A stretch of DNA of 32,996 bases from a virus. Location of the stretch: the IMG/VR virus record IMGVR_UViG_3300032304_000896, positions 1 through 32,996 of that record; one strand, 5' to 3'. The notes below the pieces were generated by a model. That model did no database searches. It saw nothing but the letters and a program-made list of their open reading frames with translations, and was not told the DNA's origin. Positions 2,472 to 15,535 of this stretch are shown one piece after another. Position 1 is the stretch's first letter. Each line of letters opens with the position of its first letter. A program made the translations under genes and the position numbers.

Positions 2472-2762
2472 ATGGATGAAGAAGAGCGTAAGAAAAAATC
2501 TGGCGTAGCGCCTAATGCAGCTCCCCCTCCAAAATTTGGTATTTTGGGTATGAAAAAGGGTGGCTCTGCTTCTTCACGCACTAATAAAACAACCGTAAAA
2601 CCAGCCGCTAAAGTAGTTAAATCTCTAAAAGAGGCTGGGTTTTATGGCGCGAGTAAACCTAAACGGCTGGGCATCATTAACAAAGTTACAACCAAACCCC
2701 AGCGGATAGAGATGGTTGATAAACTGTTTTTAGCCAAAAAAGTAAAAGGTGTAAAAAAATGA
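2472..2762 (+). CDS. Small basic KGG protein (96 aa)
   Basis: The ATG is three bases after the upstream stop. The 96-residue product starts with an acidic/basic MDEEERKKKS segment and contains FGILGMKKGGSASSRTNKT at residues 22-41, a degenerate copy of the cassette in the previous gene. It ends in a strongly basic tail (LAKKVKGVKK). No enzyme motif or membrane segment is visible. Its last four bases (ATGA) overlap the next start, a classic translational coupling arrangement. The function is unknown. The real coding nature is supported by tight packing and the shared motif. Confidence 0.7.
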   Translation: MDEEERKKKSGVAPNAAPPPKFGILGMKKGGSASSRTNKTTVKPAAKVVKSLKEAGFYGASKPKRLGIINKVTTKPQRIEMVDKLFLAKKVKGVKK

Positions 2763-3430
2763 TGGCATCCCGTGGTATGGGCGCAATCCGCGCCAGCAAA
2801 ATGCCCAAAGGTACTGAAAAGGCCCGACGGGATGACACCGACTTTACCGAATACAAAAAAGGCGGCAAAGTTAAAAAGTTTGAAGAAGGCGGAAAATCAT
2901 TAGCCGACCAAGCCAAAGATAAGATTGCGGAGTACAACAGTTCAAATAGTGGAGTTTCATCTACCGATGCTGTTCCATTTATCGAGGCAATGGGTGGCAA
3001 AGATAAGTACGGCATTGGCGGCGGCGGAAAAGCTGGCTTTAGAAAAAAACTTGATGAGAATACGGACGTAAGCGCATACCTTGAAGCTGGTGGGTTTAAG
3101 CCCAAAGCAGGCAATTTTCAAGGGAAAATTATGGGCGGCGGCGTATCTCTTAACAAGAGGTTTGATGACGGCGGGTTGGCAAAACAAGCCGCTACCGCTA
3201 TTGCCATGAAAGAGGCGGGTAAAAAGCCTAAAAAAATGGCTGCTGGTGGAAAATCAAAATCCAAAGTAAATGCCGCTGGTAATTACACCAAACCCAGTCT
3301 GCGCAAAAGAATTGTGGCGCAGGTAAAAGCCGCAGCAACGCATGGCACTGGCGCAGGTCAGTGGTCGGCTCGTAAAGCCCAGCTGGTTGCCAAGAAGTAC
3401 AAGGCGGCTGGAGGTTCTTACCGTGACTAA
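2759..3430 (+). CDS. KGG protein with C-terminal DUF5872-like half
   Basis: The start overlaps the upstream stop by four bases. The 223-residue protein has three parts. Residues 1-50 are basic with YKKGGKVKKFEEGGK. The middle contains AMGGKDKYGIGGGGKAGFRK and a following GGFKPKAGNFQGKIMGGGVS, a phage motif of unknown role that looks beta-rich. The C-terminal 56 residues contain YTKPSLRKRIVAQVKAA and GQWSARKAQLVAKKYKAAGG, which I recognise as the first half of the DUF5872-type module. In homologues I recall, this module continues directly into a 'KSLxxWxxQKWRTKSG' half. Here that half is the gene at 3857, separated by an endonuclease gene. The C-terminal end overlaps the endonuclease start by 8 bases. 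Confidence 0.8.
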   Translation: MMASRGMGAIRASKMPKGTEKARRDDTDFTEYKKGGKVKKFEEGGKSLADQAKDKIAEYNSSNSGVSSTDAVPFIEAMGGKDKYGIGGGGKAGFRKKLDENTDVSAYLEAGGFKPKAGNFQGKIMGGGVSLNKRFDDGGLAKQAATAIAMKEAGKKPKKMAAGGKSKSKVNAAGNYTKPSLRKRIVAQVKAAATHGTGAGQWSARKAQLVAKKYKAAGGSYRD

Positions 3431-3860
3431 GCTTTGCTTGAAATGCAATTCTGAAAAGCCATTAGAAGACTTTTACAAGTTTTTTGACAAATGGTCAGAT
3501 AAACATTATTCAAGCGCCCGTTGCAAACCTTGTCATCAAGAATACAAGCGCGAAAGCCCCACTACCCCACGTAACCGCAAAGCGGAAAAATTGCAGTTGC
3601 GATACGGGTTAACGTATGAGCAGTGGGAGCAAATGCGGCTAAATGAAGGATATGCTTGCATGATATGTGGCATAACTGAAAATGAAATTGACAAAAAACT
3701 TGATGTAGATCATTGCCACACAAGCGGAAAAGTTCGTGGTATTTTGTGCAACCCGTGCAACAATATGATTGGTCATGCTAAAGACAACATTCAAGCGCTG
3801 CGGGCTGCTGCGGATTACCTTGAACAAAATGCAAGTGGGTACAAAGGATTTGAAAATTGA
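3423..3860 (+). CDS. Recombination endonuclease VII-type HNH nuclease
   Basis: The start is GTG 3423, backed by GGAGG at 3410-3414 with an 8-base spacer. The upstream in-frame start at 3342 would overlap the previous gene by 89 bases and is rejected. The 145-residue protein has an N-terminal zinc-ribbon-like set (C5, C8, C34, C37), a second C-x-x-C at MICG, and the catalytic block DVDHCHTSGKVRG followed by LCNPCNNMIGHAKD. This is the treble-clef His-Me finger signature of the T4 endonuclease VII family: DHCH, then G-x-x-R-G-x-L-C-x-x-C-N. The family resolves branched DNA or acts as a homing-type nuclease. Here the nuclease sits exactly between two gene halves, which favours a mobile, intercalating role. 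No other mobile-element features are visible. Confidence 0.93.
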   Translation: MTKLCLKCNSEKPLEDFYKFFDKWSDKHYSSARCKPCHQEYKRESPTTPRNRKAEKLQLRYGLTYEQWEQMRLNEGYACMICGITENEIDKKLDVDHCHTSGKVRGILCNPCNNMIGHAKDNIQALRAAADYLEQNASGYKGFEN

Positions 3861-4090
3861 AAGCGCCGCAAAAATCCTTAAAGGATTGGGGCGACCAAAA
3901 ATGGAGAACCAAAAGTGGAAAACCGTCTAGTAAAACTGGCGAACGATACCTTCCAGAGGCTGCGATCAAAAGTCTCAGCTCTTCTGAGTACGCTGCGACA
4001 ACACGTGCAAAACGTGCTGGCAAAGCTAAAGGGAAACAATTCGTAGCCCAACCAAAAACAATTGCAAAGAAAACGGCAGGATATAGATAA
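3857..4090 (+). CDS. Basic protein, second half of DUF5872-like module
   Basis: Translation starts at TTG 3857, overlapping the endonuclease stop as TTGA, with AAGGA at 3844-3848 upstream. The 77-residue protein begins with SLKDWGDQKWRTKSGKPS, continues with TGERYLPEAAIKSLSSSEYA, and ends with GKQFVAQPKTIAKKTAGYR. This order is strongly conserved in a phage and algal-virus protein family that I recall as following the GQWSARKAQ half found at the end of the gene at 2759. The protein is very basic, has no cysteines and probably binds nucleic acid. The unusual TTG start and the 4-base overlap fit a gene that became independent when the endonuclease gene inserted. Confidence 0.8.
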   Translation: MKAPQKSLKDWGDQKWRTKSGKPSSKTGERYLPEAAIKSLSSSEYAATTRAKRAGKAKGKQFVAQPKTIAKKTAGYR

Positions 4091-5022
4091 TGGCTAAGAC
4101 CACCGGCACCACAGCTTTTGATCTCGACATGAACGACCTCATTGAAGAGGCGTTTGAGCGTTGCGGTCAAGAGCTGCGCACGGGCTATAACTTTCGCACA
4201 GCGCGGCGGTCTTTGAACCTGTTGACGATTGAGTGGGCAAACCGTGGCCTGAACTTCTGGACTGTAGAACAGGGCCAGATTCCGATGGTGACGGGCCAGG
4301 CTATCTACCCCATGCCCACGGACACAATCAACCTTCTAGACATGGTTATACGTCAGAGTAACGCCACGTCTAACCAGATCGACATCAACATCAGCGGAAT
4401 TTCTGAATCGACCTACATGAGCCTGCCAAACAAGTTGGCACAAGGTCGCCCGATTCAAGTTTGGTACAACCGTCAATCTGGTCAAGAGAACAGCACTACG
4501 GTTACCCTTAACGGAACTATTTCATCTACAGCTACCACAATCACGTTGTCTAATGTGGACAACTTGACAACCGCTGGGTTTATCAAGATTGATAACGAGA
4601 CAATCAGCTATCCCAACGTTGATCCAGTAAACAACCAGTTACTTAACTGTGCTCGAGGACAAAACGGCACGACTGCCGCAGCGCATACAACTGGCGCCGC
4701 CATAACCGTGCAAAACTTGCCCGCTATTAACGTGTGGCCCACACCTAACGCCCCTGGCGACCAGTACATGTTTGTGTACTACCGCATGCGCCGTATTCAG
4801 GATGCTGGTACGGGTGTGACAGTGCAAGATATCCCATTCCGCTTTATCCCCTGCATGGTGGCTGGGCTGGCTTATCTGTTGAGCATGAAGCTGCCAAATG
4901 TTGATCCACAGCGCGTACTGGGTCTAAAGGCCGAGTACGAACAGCAGTGGGATCTAGCACAGTCAGAAGATCGCGACACCTCTCCGTTGAGGTTTGTGCC
5001 AAGAAACATGTTCTATGCCTAA
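4090..5022 (+). CDS. Head-tail adaptor / tail tube-A-like structural protein
   Basis: The ATG overlaps the upstream TAA by one base. Residues 10-60 (DLDMNDLIEEAFERCG, RTARRSLNLLTIEWANRGLN, FWTVEQG) form the helical core seen in phage connector-completion proteins such as the P22 gp4 and T7 gp11 types. The C-terminal part (DIPFRFIPCMVAGLAYLLS, then a long helix) fits the same fold. Between them, residues about 133-208 form an inserted beta-rich module. Its core is the repeated TTITLSNVDNL, IDNETISY, and LLNCARGQNGTTAAAH pattern, which I recall in many unrelated phage structural proteins. The inserted module probably projects from the ring. The protein is predicted to bind the portal or seal the tail. 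The family assignment is by pattern only. Confidence 0.75.
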   Translation: MAKTTGTTAFDLDMNDLIEEAFERCGQELRTGYNFRTARRSLNLLTIEWANRGLNFWTVEQGQIPMVTGQAIYPMPTDTINLLDMVIRQSNATSNQIDINISGISESTYMSLPNKLAQGRPIQVWYNRQSGQENSTTVTLNGTISSTATTITLSNVDNLTTAGFIKIDNETISYPNVDPVNNQLLNCARGQNGTTAAAHTTGAAITVQNLPAINVWPTPNAPGDQYMFVYYRMRRIQDAGTGVTVQDIPFRFIPCMVAGLAYLLSMKLPNVDPQRVLGLKAEYEQQWDLAQSEDRDTSPLRFVPRNMFYA

Positions 5023-5949: not shown

Positions 5950-6927
5950 ATGAATTACATTGAACTGTTCAACACCATTCAGTCGTATACGGAAAATACC
6001 TTTCCGGAGTTCACCGCTTCTAACGCAGACGCGGTTACGCCTACTGAACAGATCAATCGCTTCATTGAGCAAGCCGAGCTTCGCATCTATAACACGGTGC
6101 AGTTCCCGTCTCTTCGTAAGAATGTGACAGGTAACATCACATCAGGTAACAAGTACCTGAAAACCCCCGACGACTTCCTTGCCACGTATTCCTTGGCTGT
6201 GATTGACGCATTGGGCAACTACGAGTACTTGTTAAACAAGGACGTGAATTACATTCGGCAGGCGTACCCTAACCCAACAACAGATGTTGGCATCCCCAAG
6301 TATTACGCTTTGTTTGGCCCATCTGTGCAAAGCAATGTCATTACGAATGAACTTACATTTCTTCTTGGCCCAACACCTAATGCAAACTACACGGCGGAAC
6401 TGCATTTCTACTACTACCCTGACTCCATCGTACAAGCAGTTATCTCATCTTTCGGGACGTTAACAGGCGGCTCTGGCTACACCAACGGCGTATACTACAA
6501 CGTGTTGTTAACCGGTGGTAGTGGCTCTGCGGCTTATGCAGACATCACTGTGAGTGGTGGTGCTGTGGTGGGAGTTGTTATTCGTAACGGCGGATGCTTG
6601 TATAAAGTTGGTAACGTGTTATCCGCAGCAGTGGCCGATATTGGCGGTACAGGAACTGGATTCTCTGTTCCTGTGGCGGCGGTGACAAACGTAACCGGCA
6701 CTGCGTGGCTGGGCGATAACTTTGATACGGTGCTCTTGTATGGCGCACTGGTTGAGGCATACACCTACATGAAGGGTGAGACAGACATGCTTGCCTTGTA
6801 TGACGGCAAATACAAAGAAGCTCTTGCACAAGCCCAGCGCCTTGGTGATGGTCTGGAGCGTAGCGATGCTTACCGTAGCGGGCAGTATAGAGTGGCTCCG
6901 CTACCACAAAATAATGGGGTTCGGTAA
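5950..6927 (+). CDS. Phage adaptor protein (DUF6682-like) with inserted beta module
   Basis: The 325-residue protein starts one base after the previous stop. The N-terminal helical core (IQSYTENTF, then INRFIEQAELRIYNTVQFP) and the block KYLKTPDDFLATYSLAV match the phage adaptor family I recall as DUF6682. The C-terminal WLGDNFDTVLLYGALVEAYT and YMKGETDMLALYDGKYKEAL complete it. The core is interrupted at residues about 162-250 by a Gly/Ser/Val-rich segment that contains GGSGYTNGVYYNVLL and DITVSGGAVVGVVI, a beta repeat found in many phage structural proteins. In relatives I recall, FYYYPDSI runs almost directly into WLGDNFD. It is a second connector or neck component that probably pairs with the one at 4090. 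The stop overlaps the next start by one base. Confidence 0.82.
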   Translation: MNYIELFNTIQSYTENTFPEFTASNADAVTPTEQINRFIEQAELRIYNTVQFPSLRKNVTGNITSGNKYLKTPDDFLATYSLAVIDALGNYEYLLNKDVNYIRQAYPNPTTDVGIPKYYALFGPSVQSNVITNELTFLLGPTPNANYTAELHFYYYPDSIVQAVISSFGTLTGGSGYTNGVYYNVLLTGGSGSAAYADITVSGGAVVGVVIRNGGCLYKVGNVLSAAVADIGGTGTGFSVPVAAVTNVTGTAWLGDNFDTVLLYGALVEAYTYMKGETDMLALYDGKYKEALAQAQRLGDGLERSDAYRSGQYRVAPLPQNNGVR

Positions 6928-8071: not shown

Positions 8072-9148
8072 ATGTTTGGTATCTCCGCATTTGCCGAAGC
8101 GCCATTTGCCTCGCTTGCGGGGCAGACGGTAGTCGTTGCTCTTACCGGCGTTCAGGCATCTGGCGCGGTAGGAACAGTCACGAATGGCGGAGTCTCAGTT
8201 GCATTAACTGGAGTCCAAGCTAATGGCAATGTAGATACAACAGCCCCAGTCATCATTGTCGCGATTTCTGGGGTTCAAGCAAGCGGCGCAGTAGGATCAG
8301 TTGATGAATCTGTTTCTTCAGCACTTACTGGCGTTGTTGCCAGCGGTGCGGTAGGCACGGTTACACAAAGCCAAGAAGTAGCCCTGACGGGGGTATCTGC
8401 TACTGGTGAAGTTGGAACGGCGGTATTTACAAAAACTGATGCGCTAACGGGCGTGGCAGCTACGGGCGCGGTTGGCTCGATTTCCGCCGCCTCTCAGTCT
8501 GTAGCGTTAAGTGGTGTTTTGGCTGCTGGCGCGGTTGGCACTTTAGCTCCATCAGACACTACTGATGAAACCAGCTTAACGGCGATTGGTAGTGTAGGGA
8601 CTGTTGGGGCTACTATTTCAGTTGCTTTGACTGGTGTTGGGGCTTCTGGCGCGGTCGGCACAGTAACGTTTTTTGTTGTCATTGAGCAGGCTTTGACGGG
8701 CGTTTCCTCAAGTGGAGCTGTTGGCTCAGTCGGGGGGGCATCGGACAGGGCTGTTGACTTGTCTGGAGTTACGGCTTCTGGAGGGCTTGGCACTACCGGT
8801 GTTTTGCATGAAAATGGGCTTAACACGGAAGGCGGCTGGGGTTCGGGTACATGGGGCGAGTATGGTTGGGGTGAAGGCCCAGTTAATACAACGTTCATTG
8901 GCGGTCAGGTTGGTACAGTCACAACCGGTAAAATATTCGGCTTGACCGGCGTAGAAGCCAGAGGACTTGTTGGTACATTGGGCGTCACCCACACCAATGG
9001 GCTATCGGGCGTACTGGCGCGGGGATTTGTAGGAAATGTTTCCAACTATTTCTGGACAACAATTGATGACAATCAGATCCCAGACTGGCATAATATCAAT
9101 GATTCCGATACTGCCAATTGGGTGTTGATTGAAACGGAAGACGCATGA
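8072..9148 (+). CDS. Tail-fibre-type protein built of ALTGVxASGAVGTV repeats
   Basis: The 358-residue protein starts at ATG 8072 after GGAG at 8063-8066. A short N-terminal domain (MFGISAFAEAPFASL) precedes about 13 repeats of about 20 residues with core A-L-T-G-V-x-A-S-G-A-V-G-T-V. One repeat near residue 170 is degenerate. Between the 11th and 12th repeats is a Trp/Gly insert GGWGSGTWGEYGWGEG, a motif also present in the protein at 18474. The C-terminus is acidic (IDDNQIPDWHNINDSD, then WVLIETEDA). Regular Val/Gly spacing suggests a beta-solenoid or elongated fibre shaft. This repeat recurs in the protein at 20586. It is probably a surface or tail structural protein, but the ligand is unknown. 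Confidence 0.8.
   Translation: MFGISAFAEAPFASLAGQTVVVALTGVQASGAVGTVTNGGVSVALTGVQANGNVDTTAPVIIVAISGVQASGAVGSVDESVSSALTGVVASGAVGTVTQSQEVALTGVSATGEVGTAVFTKTDALTGVAATGAVGSISAASQSVALSGVLAAGAVGTLAPSDTTDETSLTAIGSVGTVGATISVALTGVGASGAVGTVTFFVVIEQALTGVSSSGAVGSVGGASDRAVDLSGVTASGGLGTTGVLHENGLNTEGGWGSGTWGEYGWGEGPVNTTFIGGQVGTVTTGKIFGLTGVEARGLVGTLGVTHTNGLSGVLARGFVGNVSNYFWTTIDDNQIPDWHNINDSDTANWVLIETEDA
8138..9043 (+). repeat. About 13 tandem LTGV repeats, period about 20 residues
   Basis: Within the gene at 8072, units of about 60 bases encode the core A-L-T-G-V-x-A-S-G-A-V-G-T-V. The bases are diverged and use many synonymous codons, which points to old repeats kept by protein-level selection rather than recent tandem duplication. 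The array is broken once by the Trp/Gly insert around 8830-8880. Confidence 0.85.
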
Positions 9149-9161
9149 GTAAGGAAGCAAT

Positions 9162-9602
9162 ATGCCTTTAGTCTTAGCAGACCGCGTTAAAGAAACCACT
9201 ACCACGGCTGGTACGGGGACGGTGACTCTGCTCGGCGCTGCCACAGGCTTTCAATCTTTTGCTGTGATTGGTAATGGAAACACTACTTACTACACAATTG
9301 CTGGGCAGACTAGCAACGAATGGGAAGTGGGTGTTGGTACATACACTTCTTCTGGTACAACGCTTGCCCGCACTACGGTCTTGTCCAATAGCGCGGGAAC
9401 ACAACCATCGGCTCTTTCATTCTCAGCCGGTACAAAAGATGTGTTTGTAACGTACCCATCAGAGTACGCTGTGGCTGCTACTAATGATGGTACAGCAGGT
9501 CAGTTGCTTACATCAAACGGTGCGGGCGTAGCTCCTACATTCCAAACATCCACAGCAGCTTCAAAAGCGTATGCGCAAGCAATGCGTATCTTGGCTATTT
9601 AA
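9162..9602 (+). CDS. Tail-associated structural protein (LADRVKETT family)
   Basis: An AAGGAAG at 9151-9157 lies 4 bases upstream of the ATG. The 146-residue product begins MPLVLADRVKETTTTAGTG and contains GFQSFAVIGNGNTTYYTIAG, WEVGVGTYTSSGTTLART and AGTKDVFVTYPSEYAV. The first 100 residues are a widely shared phage module that usually sits at the N-terminus of fibre proteins and probably attaches the fibre to the tail. A linker (GTAGQLLTSNGAGVAPTFQ) resembles the 'G-T-x-G-x-x-L-T-S-x-G' segment seen in fibre shafts. The C-terminal helix is short. Position among tail genes supports a tail-fibre attachment or shaft role. Confidence 0.8.
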   Translation: MPLVLADRVKETTTTAGTGTVTLLGAATGFQSFAVIGNGNTTYYTIAGQTSNEWEVGVGTYTSSGTTLARTTVLSNSAGTQPSALSFSAGTKDVFVTYPSEYAVAATNDGTAGQLLTSNGAGVAPTFQTSTAASKAYAQAMRILAI

Positions 9603-9611
9603 AGGAACGAT

Positions 9612-10184
9612 ATGGCAGTAACCAATTTCTCACCTCTCCTTGGTCTGGCTCTTCCAACCACAGGTGACCTGCAAGGTACTTGGGGCGTAACAGTCAATGA
9701 CTCCATCACAAGCCTACTTGATTCAGCGGTTGCTGGTACGACTACGCTTTCAGCCGATGCGGATGTAACGCTCTCAACGACCAACGGTGCAGCCAACCAA
9801 GCTCGTAATGCGGTTATCTTGTGGACAGCCAGCAACGGCGCTACCACTCGCAATATCACTGCTCCGGCTCAAAGCAAGGCGTATTTGGTCATCAATGCTG
9901 GCACTGGCTCTATCGTTATTCGCGGTTCTGGCCCAACAACTGGTGTAACGGTACCCACCGGTAATAGGGCGTTAGTCGTATGGAATGGTTCTGATTTTGT
10001 GCTGCTCTCTATGACTAATACCTCTGGGCTTGTTCCAGCCGCTAATGGTGGTACAGGTTTGTCTAGCCCAAGTACTGCTGGTAATGTTTTAACATCTACT
10101 GGAACAGGTTGGACATCTAGCGCCCCGGCTGGCGGCGTTTCTGCTGGTAAGTCTATTTCTTTTGCAATGATTTTCGGTTTCTAA
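9612..10184 (+). CDS. Tail-fibre-type structural protein (190 aa)
   Basis: AAAGGAA at 9601-9607 precedes the ATG by 4 bases. The N-terminal block LALPTTGDLQGTWGVTVNDS and the following LLDSAVAGTTTLS, NAVILWTASN and TRNITAPAQSKAYLVIN match a phage family I recognise as tail-associated. A GTGLSSPSTAGNVLTSTGTG linker follows, the same type of shaft segment as in the previous gene. The protein ends in GKSISFAMIFGF, a hydrophobic tail also common in these proteins. It is predicted to be a surface-exposed fibre component. No enzymatic motif is visible. Confidence 0.8.
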   Translation: MAVTNFSPLLGLALPTTGDLQGTWGVTVNDSITSLLDSAVAGTTTLSADADVTLSTTNGAANQARNAVILWTASNGATTRNITAPAQSKAYLVINAGTGSIVIRGSGPTTGVTVPTGNRALVVWNGSDFVLLSMTNTSGLVPAANGGTGLSSPSTAGNVLTSTGTGWTSSAPAGGVSAGKSISFAMIFGF

Positions 10185-10194
10185 GGAGCTATAA

Positions 10195-10596
10195 ATGGCC
10201 AATCCAAATATCGTAAACGTAACGTCCATTCTTGGAACTACGACATACCTCACCCCAAGTGGCACAACCGCTGTAGTGCTGTTGCCTAATGCGGCTGCAT
10301 CTAATCTGGTTTTTAAAATCAATCAGATTGTTGCCGCTAACGTCAACGGAACCGCTGCTGTAGATACCACGGTGGCTGTTTATACCAACGGCGCTCAGGC
10401 TCAAGGCTCTGCCCCTTCCAGTGGTACGGCTTTTCCGATTGTCTCAACGGTGTCTGTTCCTGCTGATGCTTCGCTGATTGTGACCGATAAGACTACGGGT
10501 CTGTACCTGATGGAAGGTACTTCGATCATTGTCACTTCGGGAACCGCCAGCGGCATTACATACACAATCAGTTACGAGTCCATTTCTTCTTCTTGA
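10195..10596 (+). CDS. Small beta-rich structural protein (133 aa)
   Basis: AAGGAGC at 10183-10189 lies 5 bases before ATG 10195, a clear ribosome site. The protein is Thr/Val/Ala/Ser-rich with few charges. Visible features are TSILGTTTYLTPSGTTAVVLL, a KINQIVAANVNGT strand, PIVSTVSVPADASLIVTDK and an aromatic-poor C-terminus ending SISSS. The 'VSVPADASLIVTDKTTGLYLMEG' order is a landmark of a small phage protein family that I recall in tail-gene clusters. It probably forms a beta-sandwich attached to the fibres. The precise role is unknown. Confidence 0.75.
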   Translation: MANPNIVNVTSILGTTTYLTPSGTTAVVLLPNAAASNLVFKINQIVAANVNGTAAVDTTVAVYTNGAQAQGSAPSSGTAFPIVSTVSVPADASLIVTDKTTGLYLMEGTSIIVTSGTASGITYTISYESISSS

Positions 10597-10608
10597 TCGG
10601 GGGGCACC

Positions 10609-11814
10609 ATGCCAATGCGTCCTCCTGCTGGGTTTATCTCAGCCTTTTATGACCCGCTGAACAATCCGAATGCGCCGACCATAGGGACGGCTACGGGTGG
10701 GGATACATCCGCGTCTGTTGCGTTCACCCCGCCGTCCAACGTGGGCGGATCGGCTATTTCTGGATACGGCGCTATATCGACCCCCGGTAACGTCACTGCA
10801 ACAGCGGCTTCTTCGCCAATCAGCGTTACAGGTTTGACCAACGGCACGGCTTACACATTTGCCGTGTGGGCCATTAACAGTTATGGCCCCAGTGCCTTCA
10901 GTGCGTCTAGTAACAGTGTGACACCGCAACCACCACCACGAGGGTTGTTCGCTGGCGGAAACACTGCCAACATGGGCGTCAATACCAACGTCATTCAGTA
11001 CGTGACCATATCGTCTACGGGCAACGCAATTGACTTCGGCGATTTGACGCAAACAAGGTCAAACTTAGCCGGGTGCTCATCTTCTACAAGAGGTATTTTT
11101 AGCGGCGGATTGTCCTCAGGTAGTTTTGTTAACACTATTGACTACGTGACAATTGCAACTACAGGTGATGCCGCAGATTTTGGTGATTTACTTGTTGCCA
11201 CAGGGGAGCTTGCCTCCGCTTCTAGTTCAACTAGGGGGTTAATTGCTGGTGGAGTTGATTCCGCCCGTACCAATGTAATTCAGTATGTAACTATTGCTTC
11301 AACTGGAAACGCGACGGATTTTGGCGATTTAACAATTGCAGTAAACGGTTTGGCGGGATGCGCCTCTCCAACTCGTAGTTTATTTGGCGGAGGCTTCAGT
11401 GGTGGTTATACCGCAGTGATTGGCTACGTCACCACCGCCTCTACTGGGAATGCTACTTCGTTTGGAAATCTTACTGTAGGCCGACAATACGTTGCCTCAT
11501 GCAGTTCGGACACAAGGGGGCTTTTTGCTGGCGGGACAACTGGTTCAAACTCTAACGTAATAGACTACGTGACCATTGCCTCTACGGGGAATGCCACAGA
11601 TTTTGGCGACTTGACTACATACTCAAAATCAATGGCCGGATGCTCCTCTACTACGCGAGGACTTTTTGGTGGCGGAGAGGATGATGCTATTGGAAGAGTA
11701 AATGTTATTTTTTACGTAACTATTGCCACAACGGGAAACGCTTTAGATTTTGGTGATCTTACAAATACGCCCCAACAGTTAGCGGCCTGTTCATCTGCCC
11801 ACGGAGGTTTATAA
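10609..11814 (+). CDS. FN3 plus six kelch-like repeats, putative receptor-binding protein
   Basis: The start is preceded by GGGGGG at 10598-10603. Residues about 22-106 form a fibronectin type III domain: APTIGTATGGDTSASVAF, PPSNVGGSAISGY, SSPISVTGLTNGTAYTFAV, then WAINSYGPSAFSAS. After a PQPPPRG linker come exactly six repeats of about 48 residues, with core R-G-L-F-A-G-G, V-I-D-Y-V-T-I-A-S-T-G-N-A-T-D-F-G-D-L-T and A-G-C-S-S-x-T. Double-glycine repeats in this number fit a six-bladed beta-propeller. An N-terminal FN3 would link the propeller to the tail. The last codons carry the ribosome site of the next gene. Surface binding is inferred. Confidence 0.8.
   Translation: MPMRPPAGFISAFYDPLNNPNAPTIGTATGGDTSASVAFTPPSNVGGSAISGYGAISTPGNVTATAASSPISVTGLTNGTAYTFAVWAINSYGPSAFSASSNSVTPQPPPRGLFAGGNTANMGVNTNVIQYVTISSTGNAIDFGDLTQTRSNLAGCSSSTRGIFSGGLSSGSFVNTIDYVTIATTGDAADFGDLLVATGELASASSSTRGLIAGGVDSARTNVIQYVTIASTGNATDFGDLTIAVNGLAGCASPTRSLFGGGFSGGYTAVIGYVTTASTGNATSFGNLTVGRQYVASCSSDTRGLFAGGTTGSNSNVIDYVTIASTGNATDFGDLTTYSKSMAGCSSTTRGLFGGGEDDAIGRVNVIFYVTIATTGNALDFGDLTNTPQQLAACSSAHGGL
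10939..11811 (+). repeat. Six kelch-like propeller repeats
   Basis: Six units of about 144 bases, residues 111-401 of the protein. Each encodes R-G-(L/I)-F-x-G-G, a variable loop, (V/N)-I-x-Y-V-T-I-A-S-T-G-N-A, D-F-G-D-L and a Cys/Ser-rich end. The variable loop after GG differs in length and sequence in every unit, while the beta-strand cores stay constant. The same unit recurs in the next two genes. Confidence 0.85.
11803..11807 (+). promoter_or_regulatory. Ribosome site inside the HGGL codons of the upstream gene
   Basis: GGAGG lies 7 bases before ATG 11815 and is encoded by the His-Gly-Gly-Leu C-terminus of the preceding propeller gene (CAC GGA GGT TTA TAA ATG). The same arrangement recurs at 12742-12746 for the gene at 12754. 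It decides both starts and couples the three propeller genes. Confidence 0.8.
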
Positions 11815-12753
11815 ATGCCAAGCTATTCAGGTGTATGGACACTCACTGCTGTGTACCAAGCTGTTGGGGCTAATAATTGGACAAACCCACCTCCCGATTA
11901 TGGGCTGTTTGGCGGCGGCTCTGGAGGTAATACAATTTCTTATGTAGCTATTGCAAGCACAGGAAATGCCTCAGATTTTGGTGATTTGATTGGTCAGGAC
12001 TGGCAGTATCTTGCGGGGTGCTCGTCTTCTACCCGTGGTTTGTTTGGGGGCGGAGCGCAAGTTGTTTCCGGAAATTATTTTTATAATACGGTCAACTACG
12101 TAACTTTTGCCACAACAGGAAATTCTTTAGATTTTGGAGATTTACCAACAAACCATTACGCGGTTGCTGCTTTATCAAACGCCACTCGTGGTCTTTTTGC
12201 GGGCAACAGTCCTGCGTCCAACACCATTGATTTCGTGACAATTGCCACCACTGGTAACGGTTCAGATTTTGGCGATTTAACAAGCACTACCCTAATTGCG
12301 GCTGGTTGCGCATCTCCAACTCGCGGCTTATTTGGCGGTGGGCAAACCTCTGGCGGCATAAAACTCAGCATAATTAGTTACGTCACAATTGCCTCGGCAG
12401 GCGATGCAACTTCTTTTGGCGACTTAACAGAGGCAAGGGCTGTTCCCGCTGCATTTTCTAGTAGCATCCGCGCATGTTGGGCAGGGGGCTTAACAACCGT
12501 TACAGTCAACACAATCGACTACGTGACCATCGCTTCAACCGGTAATGCAACTGATTTTGGTGATTTGATAAGCGCCTTTGGTGGCTGTGCAGGCTGCTCT
12601 TCAGCAACTAGAGGGTTGGTTGGTGGTGGCGGCCCAAGCAATGTTATTCAATACGTGACAATAGCCTCAACGGGGAACGCTACAGACTTTGGTGATTTGG
12701 TTGTAAGCACTGAAGTTCTTGGCGCTTGTTCATCTGCTCACGGAGGTCTATAA
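11815..12753 (+). CDS. Six-repeat kelch-like propeller protein
   Basis: The ATG follows the upstream TAA directly with an overlapping GGAGG at 11803-11807. Residues 1-29 are a small W-rich cap (GVWTLTAVYQAVGANNW). Residues 30-312 hold six repeats of the same unit as in the previous protein, ending in ACSSAHGGL. There is no FN3 domain. The fourth unit starts with CWAGG rather than LFAGG, at the position where units usually begin R-G-L-F. Six units again fit a closed six-bladed propeller. Lack of a long N-terminal domain suggests that it binds another fibre subunit rather than the tail directly. Likely a second receptor-binding or enzymatic-looking propeller. No catalytic residues are recognised. 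Confidence 0.78.
   Translation: MPSYSGVWTLTAVYQAVGANNWTNPPPDYGLFGGGSGGNTISYVAIASTGNASDFGDLIGQDWQYLAGCSSSTRGLFGGGAQVVSGNYFYNTVNYVTFATTGNSLDFGDLPTNHYAVAALSNATRGLFAGNSPASNTIDFVTIATTGNGSDFGDLTSTTLIAAGCASPTRGLFGGGQTSGGIKLSIISYVTIASAGDATSFGDLTEARAVPAAFSSSIRACWAGGLTTVTVNTIDYVTIASTGNATDFGDLISAFGGCAGCSSATRGLVGGGGPSNVIQYVTIASTGNATDFGDLVVSTEVLGACSSAHGGL
11902..12750 (+). repeat. Six kelch-like propeller repeats, second gene
   Basis: Six units, residues 30-312, with the same core as in the gene at 10609 (x-G-L-F-G-G-G, T-I-x-Y-V-T-I-A-S-T-G-N-A, D-F-G-D-L). The fifth and sixth units carry the shared V-T-I-A-S-T-G-N-A-T-D-F-G-D-L core exactly. Loop sequences differ from those of the first gene. Confidence 0.83.
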
Positions 12754-14679
12754 ATGGCAATATCTTCATGGAACGCAGGGATCATCAGACCCGTAGCCGT
12801 ACCTCCTGCTGGCCCGTTTCAAGACGGAGCGGCTCCCGGTGTGTGGACGCTTGACCAACAAGCCTTTTGGCAGAAGCAAGGGCTGTGGCCTATTGCTGGG
12901 AATATTGCCGAGATTGGTTTATTTGCTGGTGGTTTTGCAGCCGCAGCAACAAACGTAATAAATAAAATTATTATTGGAACTACTGGAAACGCTACAAATT
13001 TTGGTAATTTGACGCAGGCAACATATCAGGCGGCTGGATGTGCATCTAATACTAGGGCAATTTTTGGTGGCGGAACAGTAGCTGGAACTTATCAAAACGT
13101 AATAGAATTCGTAGCATTTTCCACAGGGGGCACTGCGTCAGATTTTGGCGATCTTGTTGGTGTAAATGCGTATTTATCAGCCGCATCAAATAATGTTAGA
13201 GGGATATTTTTTGGTGGGTATGACAGCGTAGCAGTTAACGTAATTCAATACATCACAATAGCAAGCACCGGCAACACTTCTGATTTTGGCGATTTATCAG
13301 CAACTTGTTATACAACTGCGGCTTGTGCATCAAGTACAAGAGCATTAAGTGCGCTATCTTTTACAGGTAGTAATTCTAATATTATTGAATACGTTACCAT
13401 TGCGTCCGCGAGTAACTCTATAGATTTTGGTGATTTAACATTAGCAAGAAATTCGTTATCTAGCTGTGCATCTGAGACTCGTGGGTTATTTGCTGGGGGT
13501 AATGCAGCAACGAACGTAATTGACTACGTCACAATAGCTTCAGTTGGAAACGCTATTGATTTTGGCGATTTAACGCTGGCAAGGTATTACATTGGTTCCT
13601 GTGCATCAGCAACACGAGGCGTGTTTGGTGGCGGATATACCGGTAGCAACCCAAGCAATATAATTGACTACGTCACAATAGCTTCCGTAGGTAATGCTGC
13701 CGACTTTGGTGATTTGGTTGCAGCAACAAGTATTTATAACGCCGCTTGCTCTAACGCCGCTGCCGCCGTCCAAGCCACACCAACAAGTTCTGCGATGGCT
13801 CTGTTTGGTGGCGGCGGTACAGATGCTTTATCTCAAATCTCAACAATTCAATACGTAAATATTGCTACTACAGGTAATGCTTTTCTGTTTGGTGATTTAA
13901 GTGTTGCCCGTAACGCACTTGCTGGCTGCGCATCTTCTACTAGAGGTGTATTTGGAGGTGGCGATCCTGCCGGTGCAAGCGAAACAAACGTAATTGACTA
14001 TATTGAGTTTTCTACTTTTGGTATATGCACGGACTTTGGTGATTTAACTATTGCCCGAAAAGAGATTTCTGCCTGTAACTCGTCAACTCGTGGCGTATTC
14101 ATGGGTGGTGATGGGTCACAAAAGAACGTAATTGACTACATCACTATTGCCTCCACAGGTAATGCTACCGACTTTGGCGACACAACTCAAAACCAAATTG
14201 GTCTTGGTGGGTGTTCATCGCCAACAAGGGGTATTTACGGTGGTGGTTATAGTAATACCATACCCGGCTATACCAACGTAATCGGTTACATCACAATTGC
14301 CACTACTGGGAATGCTATTGATTTTGGCGATTTGACTGTTACGCGGGGGGACGGCGTTGCGTCTTGTTCATCTAGTACTGTAGGGGTATTTGCGGGTGGT
14401 TACACAGGCGCTGCATTATCAAACGTCATTGACTACGTAACAATTGCGTCAACAGGTAATGCAACTGATTTTGGTGACCTCATAAATCCAACGCAACGGA
14501 TTACTGGCACTTCCTCCTCAACGCGTGGCGTATTTGCAGGTGGAGATATTTTTAGCGGGGCAACAAATGTGATTCAGTATGTCACTATTGCTTCCGCCGG
14601 AAATGCAACAGACTTTGGCGATTTAAGTGTTGGCACAAAATACATAGGCGCTTGTTCCAACGCCAACGGTGGTTTATGA
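12754..14679 (+). CDS. Twelve-repeat kelch-like protein (two tandem propellers)
   Basis: The ATG follows the upstream TAA directly, with GGAGG at 12742-12746. Residues 1-54 form a cap with GVWTLDQQAFWQKQGLWPIAG, resembling the W-rich cap of the previous gene. Twelve repeats of the same unit follow. The first six (residues about 55-333) end in a CSNAAAAVQATPTSSAM linker (331-348), and the second six (349-641) end in ACSNANGGL. The count and the linker after unit six suggest two consecutive six-bladed propellers. Some units are degenerate, for example the fourth, which begins RALSALSF instead of RGLFAGG. The stop overlaps no start. The next gene has its own ribosome site. Host-binding role is inferred. 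Confidence 0.8.
   Translation: MAISSWNAGIIRPVAVPPAGPFQDGAAPGVWTLDQQAFWQKQGLWPIAGNIAEIGLFAGGFAAAATNVINKIIIGTTGNATNFGNLTQATYQAAGCASNTRAIFGGGTVAGTYQNVIEFVAFSTGGTASDFGDLVGVNAYLSAASNNVRGIFFGGYDSVAVNVIQYITIASTGNTSDFGDLSATCYTTAACASSTRALSALSFTGSNSNIIEYVTIASASNSIDFGDLTLARNSLSSCASETRGLFAGGNAATNVIDYVTIASVGNAIDFGDLTLARYYIGSCASATRGVFGGGYTGSNPSNIIDYVTIASVGNAADFGDLVAATSIYNAACSNAAAAVQATPTSSAMALFGGGGTDALSQISTIQYVNIATTGNAFLFGDLSVARNALAGCASSTRGVFGGGDPAGASETNVIDYIEFSTFGICTDFGDLTIARKEISACNSSTRGVFMGGDGSQKNVIDYITIASTGNATDFGDTTQNQIGLGGCSSPTRGIYGGGYSNTIPGYTNVIGYITIATTGNAIDFGDLTVTRGDGVASCSSSTVGVFAGGYTGAALSNVIDYVTIASTGNATDFGDLINPTQRITGTSSSTRGVFAGGDIFSGATNVIQYVTIASAGNATDFGDLSVGTKYIGACSNANGGL
12916..14676 (+). repeat. 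Twelve kelch-like propeller repeats, third gene
   Basis: Units of about 138-150 bases, residues 55-641, with the same core. Unit 6 ends in a non-repeat linker at 13753-13797, and unit 7 restarts with ALFGGGG. The nucleotide sequence of the units is diverged, with synonymous changes throughout, so they are not recent copies. Confidence 0.83.
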
Positions 14680-14707
14680 TGGTACTTCCCACAAACAGGA
14701 GAACCCT

Positions 14708-15535
14708 TTGAGCAATGAACTGATCCTCGGCAACATGAACACCACTCTGGCTATCAATAAGCCGGAGTACAACGTGATGCTAAAAAACATCCAAGACCGG
14801 ATGCCTGCTGTCACACGCGACACCAGCAACTTCCACAAGTCTCATAGCCAATTCATGTCGGTGACGCTGGACGTAACGGCCATCACGCCAATCCGTTCTA
14901 TCAAGCACACACTTGCCGAAATTGACAGAACCAAGTCCGCCTTACAAGAAGCCTACATTGGCTTGCGTAAGAAGCAGGTGGAACTCAAGAAGAAAGAGCG
15001 TGAGTTGGAAAGCTGCACAGACCCGCTAGATCGTGAACTGCTTGAGATTGAGATTCTTGAATTAAACAGCCACCTCGAAGGTACGCAGAACCATGTGAAT
15101 GGTGCATTGCGCAAGATGAACTTCATGGTGAACCAGCACAAACAACTGTTGGAAAAAGCTGGCAAGAACGAGATTACCGAAGAGGACTACGAGAAGGAAG
15201 AGTCCAAGTACCACATCATGACCTGCATGAAGCAAGCCTTGAACGCTGCCCGTAGCCGCAATGGCATGATTGACGAAGGCAACTTGATCTATTTGTTTGA
15301 CTTGGGTATCAACGCTGCTCAGGCTCAGGCTGAAGTGTTTGCCTACCTGAACATGGAGAACCAGCTTATCTCCAGCGGTACTGCGCCTACGCACGAGATG
15401 ACCATGCGCTGGCTGGAGGCTTGTGCAGACAAGTGGGCCAATGATCCTGCTGCCTTTGCTGGTCGCCGTGGCTTTTCTGTGTTTGATGAGTCCAGCCTGA
15501 CCAACCGTTTGGGCTACGCCCCTGCGGAGGAATAA
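14708..15535 (+). CDS. Coiled-coil phage structural or assembly protein (275 aa)
   Basis: The start is TTG 14708, with AGGAGA at 14697-14702 and a 5-base spacer. The in-frame start at 14669 lies inside the preceding gene and gives residues not related to the family. The protein is mostly helical: residues about 45-185 include SFMSVTLDVTAITPIRSIKHT-like (here SQFMSVTLDVTAITPIRSI), then KKQVELKKKERELES and ELLEIEILELNSHLEGTQN as coiled coils. The C-terminal half (HIMTCMKQALNAARSRNGMIDEG, EMTMRWLEACADKWA) is strongly conserved in environmental phages I recall. No membrane segment or enzyme motif is seen. A scaffold, tail or virion assembly role is plausible, but it is not established. Confidence 0.75.
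   Translation: MSNELILGNMNTTLAINKPEYNVMLKNIQDRMPAVTRDTSNFHKSHSQFMSVTLDVTAITPIRSIKHTLAEIDRTKSALQEAYIGLRKKQVELKKKERELESCTDPLDRELLEIEILELNSHLEGTQNHVNGALRKMNFMVNQHKQLLEKAGKNEITEEDYEKEESKYHIMTCMKQALNAARSRNGMIDEGNLIYLFDLGINAAQAQAEVFAYLNMENQLISSGTAPTHEMTMRWLEACADKWANDPAAFAGRRGFSVFDESSLTNRLGYAPAEE

Follow-up and report, generated by a model that had tools for sequence, protein, structure and literature searches.

A three-gene phage cassette predicted to encode four closed six-bladed kelch-type propellers, and related genes that are split within one blade loop

In the BTB-kelch protein Keap1 the ring is closed by strand A of blade 1, which comes from the C terminus (PMC4668279), and the B-C and D-A loop sets of Keap1 and kelch domains build the ligand pocket, which lies on one face (PMC4668279, PMC6650413). 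The SAKe6 proteins (PDB 7onc and others) are kelch propellers that were designed to be symmetric. Tailed phages have kelch-type propellers as well: the virion protein CBB_552 (mass spectrometry detected a kelch protein in the virions of phage CBB, PMC5259590), A0A4D5ZBY9 of the Burkholderia phage BcepSaruman, M4QT40 of the Synechococcus phage S-SKS1, and the family PHROG 19111. Here we describe three consecutive genes, which we call A, B and C, in the viral (phage) DNA record IMGVR_UViG_3300032304_000896, the 32,996 bases of which, analysed as a whole, are referred to as the window. We propose, with a probability of roughly 0.6, that these genes belong to a tightly coupled operon in the virion and lysis region of a tailed phage and encode four closed six-bladed rings of the kelch type, most likely exchangeable binding tips. 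They resemble the phage proteins listed above in being kelch-type propellers, but are only 19-28% identical to them where compared and differ in unit sequence and in linker; no three-gene cassette is reported for them in the literature that we consulted.

The three open reading frames (ORFs) abut: 10609-11814 (401 amino acids), 11815-12753 (312 amino acids) and 12754-14679 (641 amino acids). When the units, 44-52 amino acids long, are cut at the DFGDL core, the proteins hold 6, 6 and 12 of them, in agreement with the copy numbers and coordinates of the original prediction, which had been made from the sequence without database searches. The latter also placed a non-repeat linker exactly after unit six of the third protein, where AAAAVQATPTSSA is indeed found (residues 334-348 or so). 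Two units are irregular and yet present, unit 3 of gene B (GLFAGNS) and unit 4 of gene C (ALSALSF, which has no double glycine). All three ORFs end with an additional half unit (..LAACSSAHGGL), which had gone without comment. The repetition is far beyond chance, since hundreds of viral contigs carry the same unit. The cassette is divided as follows, in coordinates of the window:

10609..10938, plus strand: N-terminal adaptor of gene A, with a fibronectin type III (FN3) domain (Pfam fn3, 4.5e-6, above the cut-off)
10939..11805, plus strand: predicted six-bladed kelch-type propeller of gene A, units 1-6 and closing strand (homology to the modelled gene B)
11803..11808, plus strand: GGAGGT in the ..HGGL* codons of gene A, putative Shine-Dalgarno sequence of gene B, ATG at 11815 (sequence, family-wide enrichment)
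11815..11898, plus strand: short N-terminal adaptor of gene B, MPSYSGVWTL.. (alignment A1)
11899..12744, plus strand: predicted six-bladed kelch-type propeller of gene B (AlphaFold2 model, match to Keap1 and SAKe6)
12742..12747, plus strand: GGAGGT in the ..HGGL* codons of gene B, putative Shine-Dalgarno sequence of gene C, ATG at 12754 (sequence, family-wide enrichment)
12754..12912, plus strand: N-terminal adaptor of gene C, WNAGIIRPVAVPPAGPFQDGAAPGVWTL.. (low-confidence segment of the model; also found on non-propeller proteins)
12913..13752, plus strand: first predicted six-bladed propeller of gene C, units 1-6 (24 predicted strands, residues 54 to 333)
13753..13797, plus strand: linker of gene C after unit six, residues 334-348 (non-repeat stretch; relatives have a linker after unit 6)
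13798..14670, plus strand: second predicted six-bladed propeller of gene C (24 predicted strands, residues 348-635; match to Keap1 and SAKe6)

The products of genes B and C were modelled with AlphaFold2, from an alignment of 40 relatives (A1) for the former and a separate alignment (A2) for the latter. The gene B model (mean predicted local distance difference test score, pLDDT, 90.8; predicted template modelling score, pTM, 0.88) is a propeller of 24 strands that form a closed ring. Its top matches among solved structures are SAKe6 designs and Keap1 (Z 36-38, root-mean-square deviation 1.9-2.2 Å over about 270 residues), with 9-14% sequence identity. Residues 28..307 of the model superpose on residues 326..609 of Keap1 in the same register, so that the chain is predicted to begin at strand B and to finish with strand A, both of blade 1. 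In the model, strand 303-306 is the C-terminal strand A that closes blade 1; the N-terminal strands B, C and D of this blade would be completed in the same manner as in Keap1. The gene C model has 24 strands on either side of the linker, and its second half (residues 347-636) matches Keap1 and SAKe6 with Z 38-39; the rows of the PDB comparison for this model cover residues 344-637, which is the second half. Fold and count can be regarded as settled as far as prediction goes, which gives four rings: that of gene A is assigned by homology, and the other three are modelled.

The closed-ring models, together with unit counts in sixes, bear out the earlier proposal of four closed six-bladed propellers, for which a solenoid in the AlphaFold models was named as the contrary outcome. 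Tandem repeats of about 48 amino acids would by themselves fit an open solenoid just as well as a ring. However, the counts are held at multiples of six, the models are closed, the two halves of one blade sit at the N and C ends of the chain, and the split genes described below sum to six; on the basis of the closed models and the unit counts we rejected the solenoid, to which we give next to no credit.

The relationship to kelch proteins was examined on 2544 units from 353 non-redundant proteins. Two hallmarks of the kelch repeat are present: the double glycine that ends strand B (G in 89% of the units at column 5 and in 93% at column 6) and the tyrosine of strand C (Y at column 18 in 84%). 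The third, the tryptophan of strand D, is replaced by phenylalanine (97% at column 30), tryptophan being rare there. No Pfam kelch family was matched by the three proteins of the window at E up to 1, and a PDB sequence search returned no match for the propeller proteins, which makes the kinship with kelch proteins one of fold only; membership in the superfamily by fold does not depend on the strand D tryptophan. The PHROG 19111 profile, of unknown function, covers the repeat region of the three proteins (E 1.8e-12, 4.7e-11 and 5.7e-21). The likeness to Keap1 and other BTB-kelch proteins extends over the fold, the six blades, the double glycine, the strand C tyrosine, the closure of blade 1 and the face shared by the B-C and D-A loops. 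On the contrary, the phage proteins are about 12% identical to them, have near-identical blades, and carry phage adaptors in place of BTB. The SAKe6 designs share the six-fold repetition of near-identical blades, but they are designed, whereas the phage proteins are natural and their loops are varied. The proteins are natural kelch scaffolds that come close to symmetry and leave one face free.

Relatives were collected by four neutral searches, with gene B, with one 56-residue unit, with the FN3 adaptor alone and with the gene C adaptor alone; contigs of metagenome-assembled genomes were added, and the total given here also takes in loci from the split-pattern scans described below. Among 394 distinct complete repeat ORFs, 367 have exactly 6 (297 ORFs), 12 (69) or 18 (1) units, and none of the intact ORFs among them has 5, 7 or 8 blades, irregular counts of this kind being what the original prediction had named as evidence against it. 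The single-unit and adaptor-only searches give a like pattern of sixes. Linkers are placed after unit 6 in the relatives, and also after unit 12 in L080 (5923-8724), a single ORF of 18 units which would form three rings per chain. The 27 exceptions are mostly halves of split pairs (19 ORFs), complete pairs totalling 6 or 12. Four more are ORFs of S-SKS1, whose counts of 7, 7, 4 and 2 come from frame breaks in the deposited record around an arrangement of 6 + linker + 6; L343, in which 11 units were counted, has 12 with one degenerate unit; and the last three are short copies (L018:3994-4194 and L083:5794-6168, 1 unit each, and L034:5968-6384, 3 units), probably deletions or repeats that collapsed in assembly. 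S-SKS1 is the sole match in the cultured-phage collection (24-28% identical), where the gene C adaptor finds no match. Its distant kelch-like repeats (L086, 1663-6195) are arranged as 6 + linker GGASERIKGSRT + 6, like those of gene C.

The variation is not evenly spread over the unit. Column entropy peaks at columns 7-13 (B-C loop) and 35-40 (D-A loop), at about 3-3.9 bits, most other columns being below 2.5, and the mean is about 3.3 bits in these two loops against about 1-1.5 in the other two. The ratio of nonsynonymous to synonymous substitution rates (dN/dS), pooled over close pairs (at least 80% identity), is 0.32-0.76 in the B-C and 0.32-0.55 in the D-A loops; it is 0.05-0.12 in the strands and C-D loops and 0.07-0.20 in the A-B loops. 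Since the loops of up-and-down blades alternate between the faces, the B-C and D-A loops should lie on the same face. By these sequence measures that face is several times freer, while the opposite one is fixed. It had been predicted that the loops after the double glycine vary over fixed cores; the entropy agrees, and a second loop, from DFGDL to the next strand, varies too. The pattern is consistent with a contact between variable loops and host receptors, as was suggested at that time. A reverse transcriptase (RVT_1), as expected for variation driven by a diversity-generating retroelement, gave no match in the record, possibly an incomplete one.

Enzymes are known among kelch propellers, and the fold matches include phage proteins named galactose oxidase, so one may ask whether the rings act on host polysaccharide as a galactose oxidase or glycosidase would. 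We consider this very improbable: no catalytic residues are conserved beyond the structural core, and conservation is lowest in the columns of the pocket-side loops, whereas an active site would show the opposite.

The adaptors argue for binding tips. Each gene consists of an N-terminal adaptor followed by its putative propellers, one in genes A and B and two in tandem in gene C. Elsewhere in phages the FN3 adaptor of gene A is joined to Lcl_C, RCC1, glycine-rich or DUF7483 domains, and the upstream neighbour of the cassette is retained in 23 of 28 such ORFs with other C-terminal domains. The cassette is flanked by two conserved genes:

10195..10596, plus strand: conserved upstream neighbour, 133 amino acids (upstream in 53 of 79 related loci)
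14669..15535, plus strand: conserved downstream neighbour, phrog_1409, of unknown function (downstream in 61 of 79 related loci)

In L473 (5992-7389), the gene A adaptor is fused to an RCC1-type propeller in place of the kelch-type one. The gene C adaptor is also found on non-propeller proteins, and in alignment A1 the closest relative of gene B (L007:3511-4569, 91% identical) has an adaptor of the gene C type. Compared with window 11815-12753, the propeller of L007 is nearly identical, which points to a recent adaptor swap. A conserved N-terminal adaptor whose C-terminal domain can be exchanged is a trait of phage receptor-binding proteins, and modular adaptors with domain exchange in the same gene slot are how exchangeable binding tips behave. 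The locus illustrates a phage gene slot in which different C-terminal domains are exchanged on a fixed adaptor.

We also have to weigh the possibility that the propellers are building blocks of the virion surface or tail (decoration, whisker or nozzle-like proteins) that have no receptor role and whose loops are merely relaxed. Such proteins would be expected to keep a constant face for contacts, and one face is constant; genes resembling the SU10 adaptor lie nearby, and the kelch protein of the phage CBB particle has no known receptor role. Moreover, the pooled dN/dS of the loops stays below 1, so that we rejected positive selection on the loops, and relaxed constraint accounts for their variation equally well. 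The exchange of lectin-like, RCC1 and glycine-rich domains on one adaptor is, on the contrary, typical of binding tips, and we find a purely structural role unlikely. Other points weigh against our proposal of exchangeable tips besides the dN/dS values. The location in the virion is deduced from the genomic context, the ring of gene A follows from homology (common units) and not from a model of its own, the pTM of the gene C model is 0.59, which makes the mutual placement of its two rings uncertain, and no Pfam kelch match was obtained in 40 relatives (E 0.01). If the exchangeable-tip proposal holds, the tip would stand outside the particle and hold a host or environmental surface ligand by its B-C/D-A face; host receptor binding is the likely function.

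The part that a specialist would not expect is that, in some relatives, two adjoining ORFs replace one propeller gene. In what follows, the coordinates of minus-strand splits are counted on the reverse complement, and L033 and L262 are one contig:

Split 2+4: L033:3447-4672; L157:3720-4811; L259 (minus strand) 10550-11596; L557:7146-8125
Split 3+3: L042:5072-6312; L126:4608-5698; L556 (minus strand) 1049-2049
Split 1+5: L171 (minus strand) 10176-11386; L274; L554; L238 (cut by its end)
Split 4+2: L175 (minus strand) 1641-2758
Split 3+9 (double ring): L201 (minus strand) 2705-4628
Split 2+3 or more: L555:4873-5859 (cut by the locus end)

All splits fall in the B-C loop, directly past the double glycine of strand B: the first chain ends in ..FAGGEN*, ..FIGGDN*, ..FAGGNS*, ..FIGGTT* and the like, and the second opens with Met plus one to three more residues, followed by N-V/I-I-D/E/Q-Y. 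The start codon of the second chain overlaps the stop of the first (TAATG, TGATG) or lies right next to it; the exception is L259, in which it follows 28 bases later. This amounts to at least 11 independent loci split in the B-C loop, in which the complete pairs total 6 or 12 units. The nine hits of two strict pattern scans, run to completion, are all split propellers; in two broader scans, chance matches predominate among the matches listed. The neutral searches alone returned five splits, and all five fall in the B-C loop, which makes up about 14% of the unit; four of them have a stop and a start, and in L453 the frame is shifted with no start codon to follow. Together the two loose ends measure 4-7 residues, where intact loops have a median of 7, and the closing strands are intact. 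Copies of the 1+5 gene that are at least 99% identical were assembled from four metagenomes, which speaks against an assembly error.

We think it probable that these are natural split propellers, in which a stop and start in the B-C loop yields two co-translated chains that reassemble into one six-bladed ring, with one chain contributing strands A and B of the cut blade and the other its strands C and D; this two-chain assembly is deduced from sequence. That the split genes are assembly errors or decaying pseudogenes appears doubtful to us. Their mean unit score is a little lower (55.7, against an average of 62.8), L453 has lost its frame with no new start codon, and the three short copies mentioned above resemble collapsed repeats. 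However, errors or decay would have to strike eleven unrelated loci in one common loop with overlapping or closely spaced stops and starts, to leave the closing strands intact and complete pairs invariably at 6 or 12, and to yield the same 1+5 split in four metagenomes.

Tachylectin-2 fragments and ancestral motifs have shown that a working propeller can be assembled from pieces that hold one or more motifs (PMC4735018). Here too, several chains are predicted to make the ring, but the tachylectin-2 fragments are laboratory constructs that form homo-oligomers, whereas the split kelch-type genes are pairs of different, neighbouring natural genes, cut at several blades. A search of the literature available to us found no natural split propellers, which does not prove that none exist. 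The evolution of propellers is thought to pass through oligomeric pieces, for which the citable example is a laboratory reconstruction (PMC4735018). With natural genes fixed at 6, 12 and 18 blades and at least 11 splits, two-chain assembly and the reason for six become directly testable. If the split propellers are genuine, blade-wise exchange and re-division of binding tips would be possible.

Codons for Gly-Gly that are rich in G (GGAGGT, GGGGG) precede many of the cuts, and we suggest that ahead of some of them they might act as a ribosome-binding site. At the ends of the propeller genes, the junctions in the window read CAC GGA GGT TTA TAA ATG and CAC GGA GGT CTA TAA ATG. In the family, the Gly-Gly codons are GGAGG in 168 of the 209 cases with the start codon of a long ORF near the stop (80%), and in 15 of the 116 cases without a near start (13%; odds ratio 28, p 1e-33). 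The Gly-Gly codons of HGGL hence appear to double as the Shine-Dalgarno sequence of the next propeller gene (11803-11815 and 12742-12754). Since the amino acids GGL are kept with and without a near start, they should also have a role in the protein. This role is not that of a closure signature, as the original prediction had it; the strand directly before GGL closes the ring.

Along with a holin and a virion structural protein, the region around the cassette holds two genes resembling the SU10 adaptor and two phrog_644 genes, one of which weakly matches a phage peptidase family. PF24175, the family of the SU10 adaptor, is matched by two different proteins, at window 4090-5022 and 5950-6927. 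Upstream of the cassette, window 8072-9148 encodes a 358-amino-acid protein with about a dozen ALTGVxASGAVGTV repeats, which matches no family. Just before the cassette, two short proteins (window 9162-9602 and 9612-10184) have hydrophobic C-terminal ends, AMRILAI and AMIFGF.

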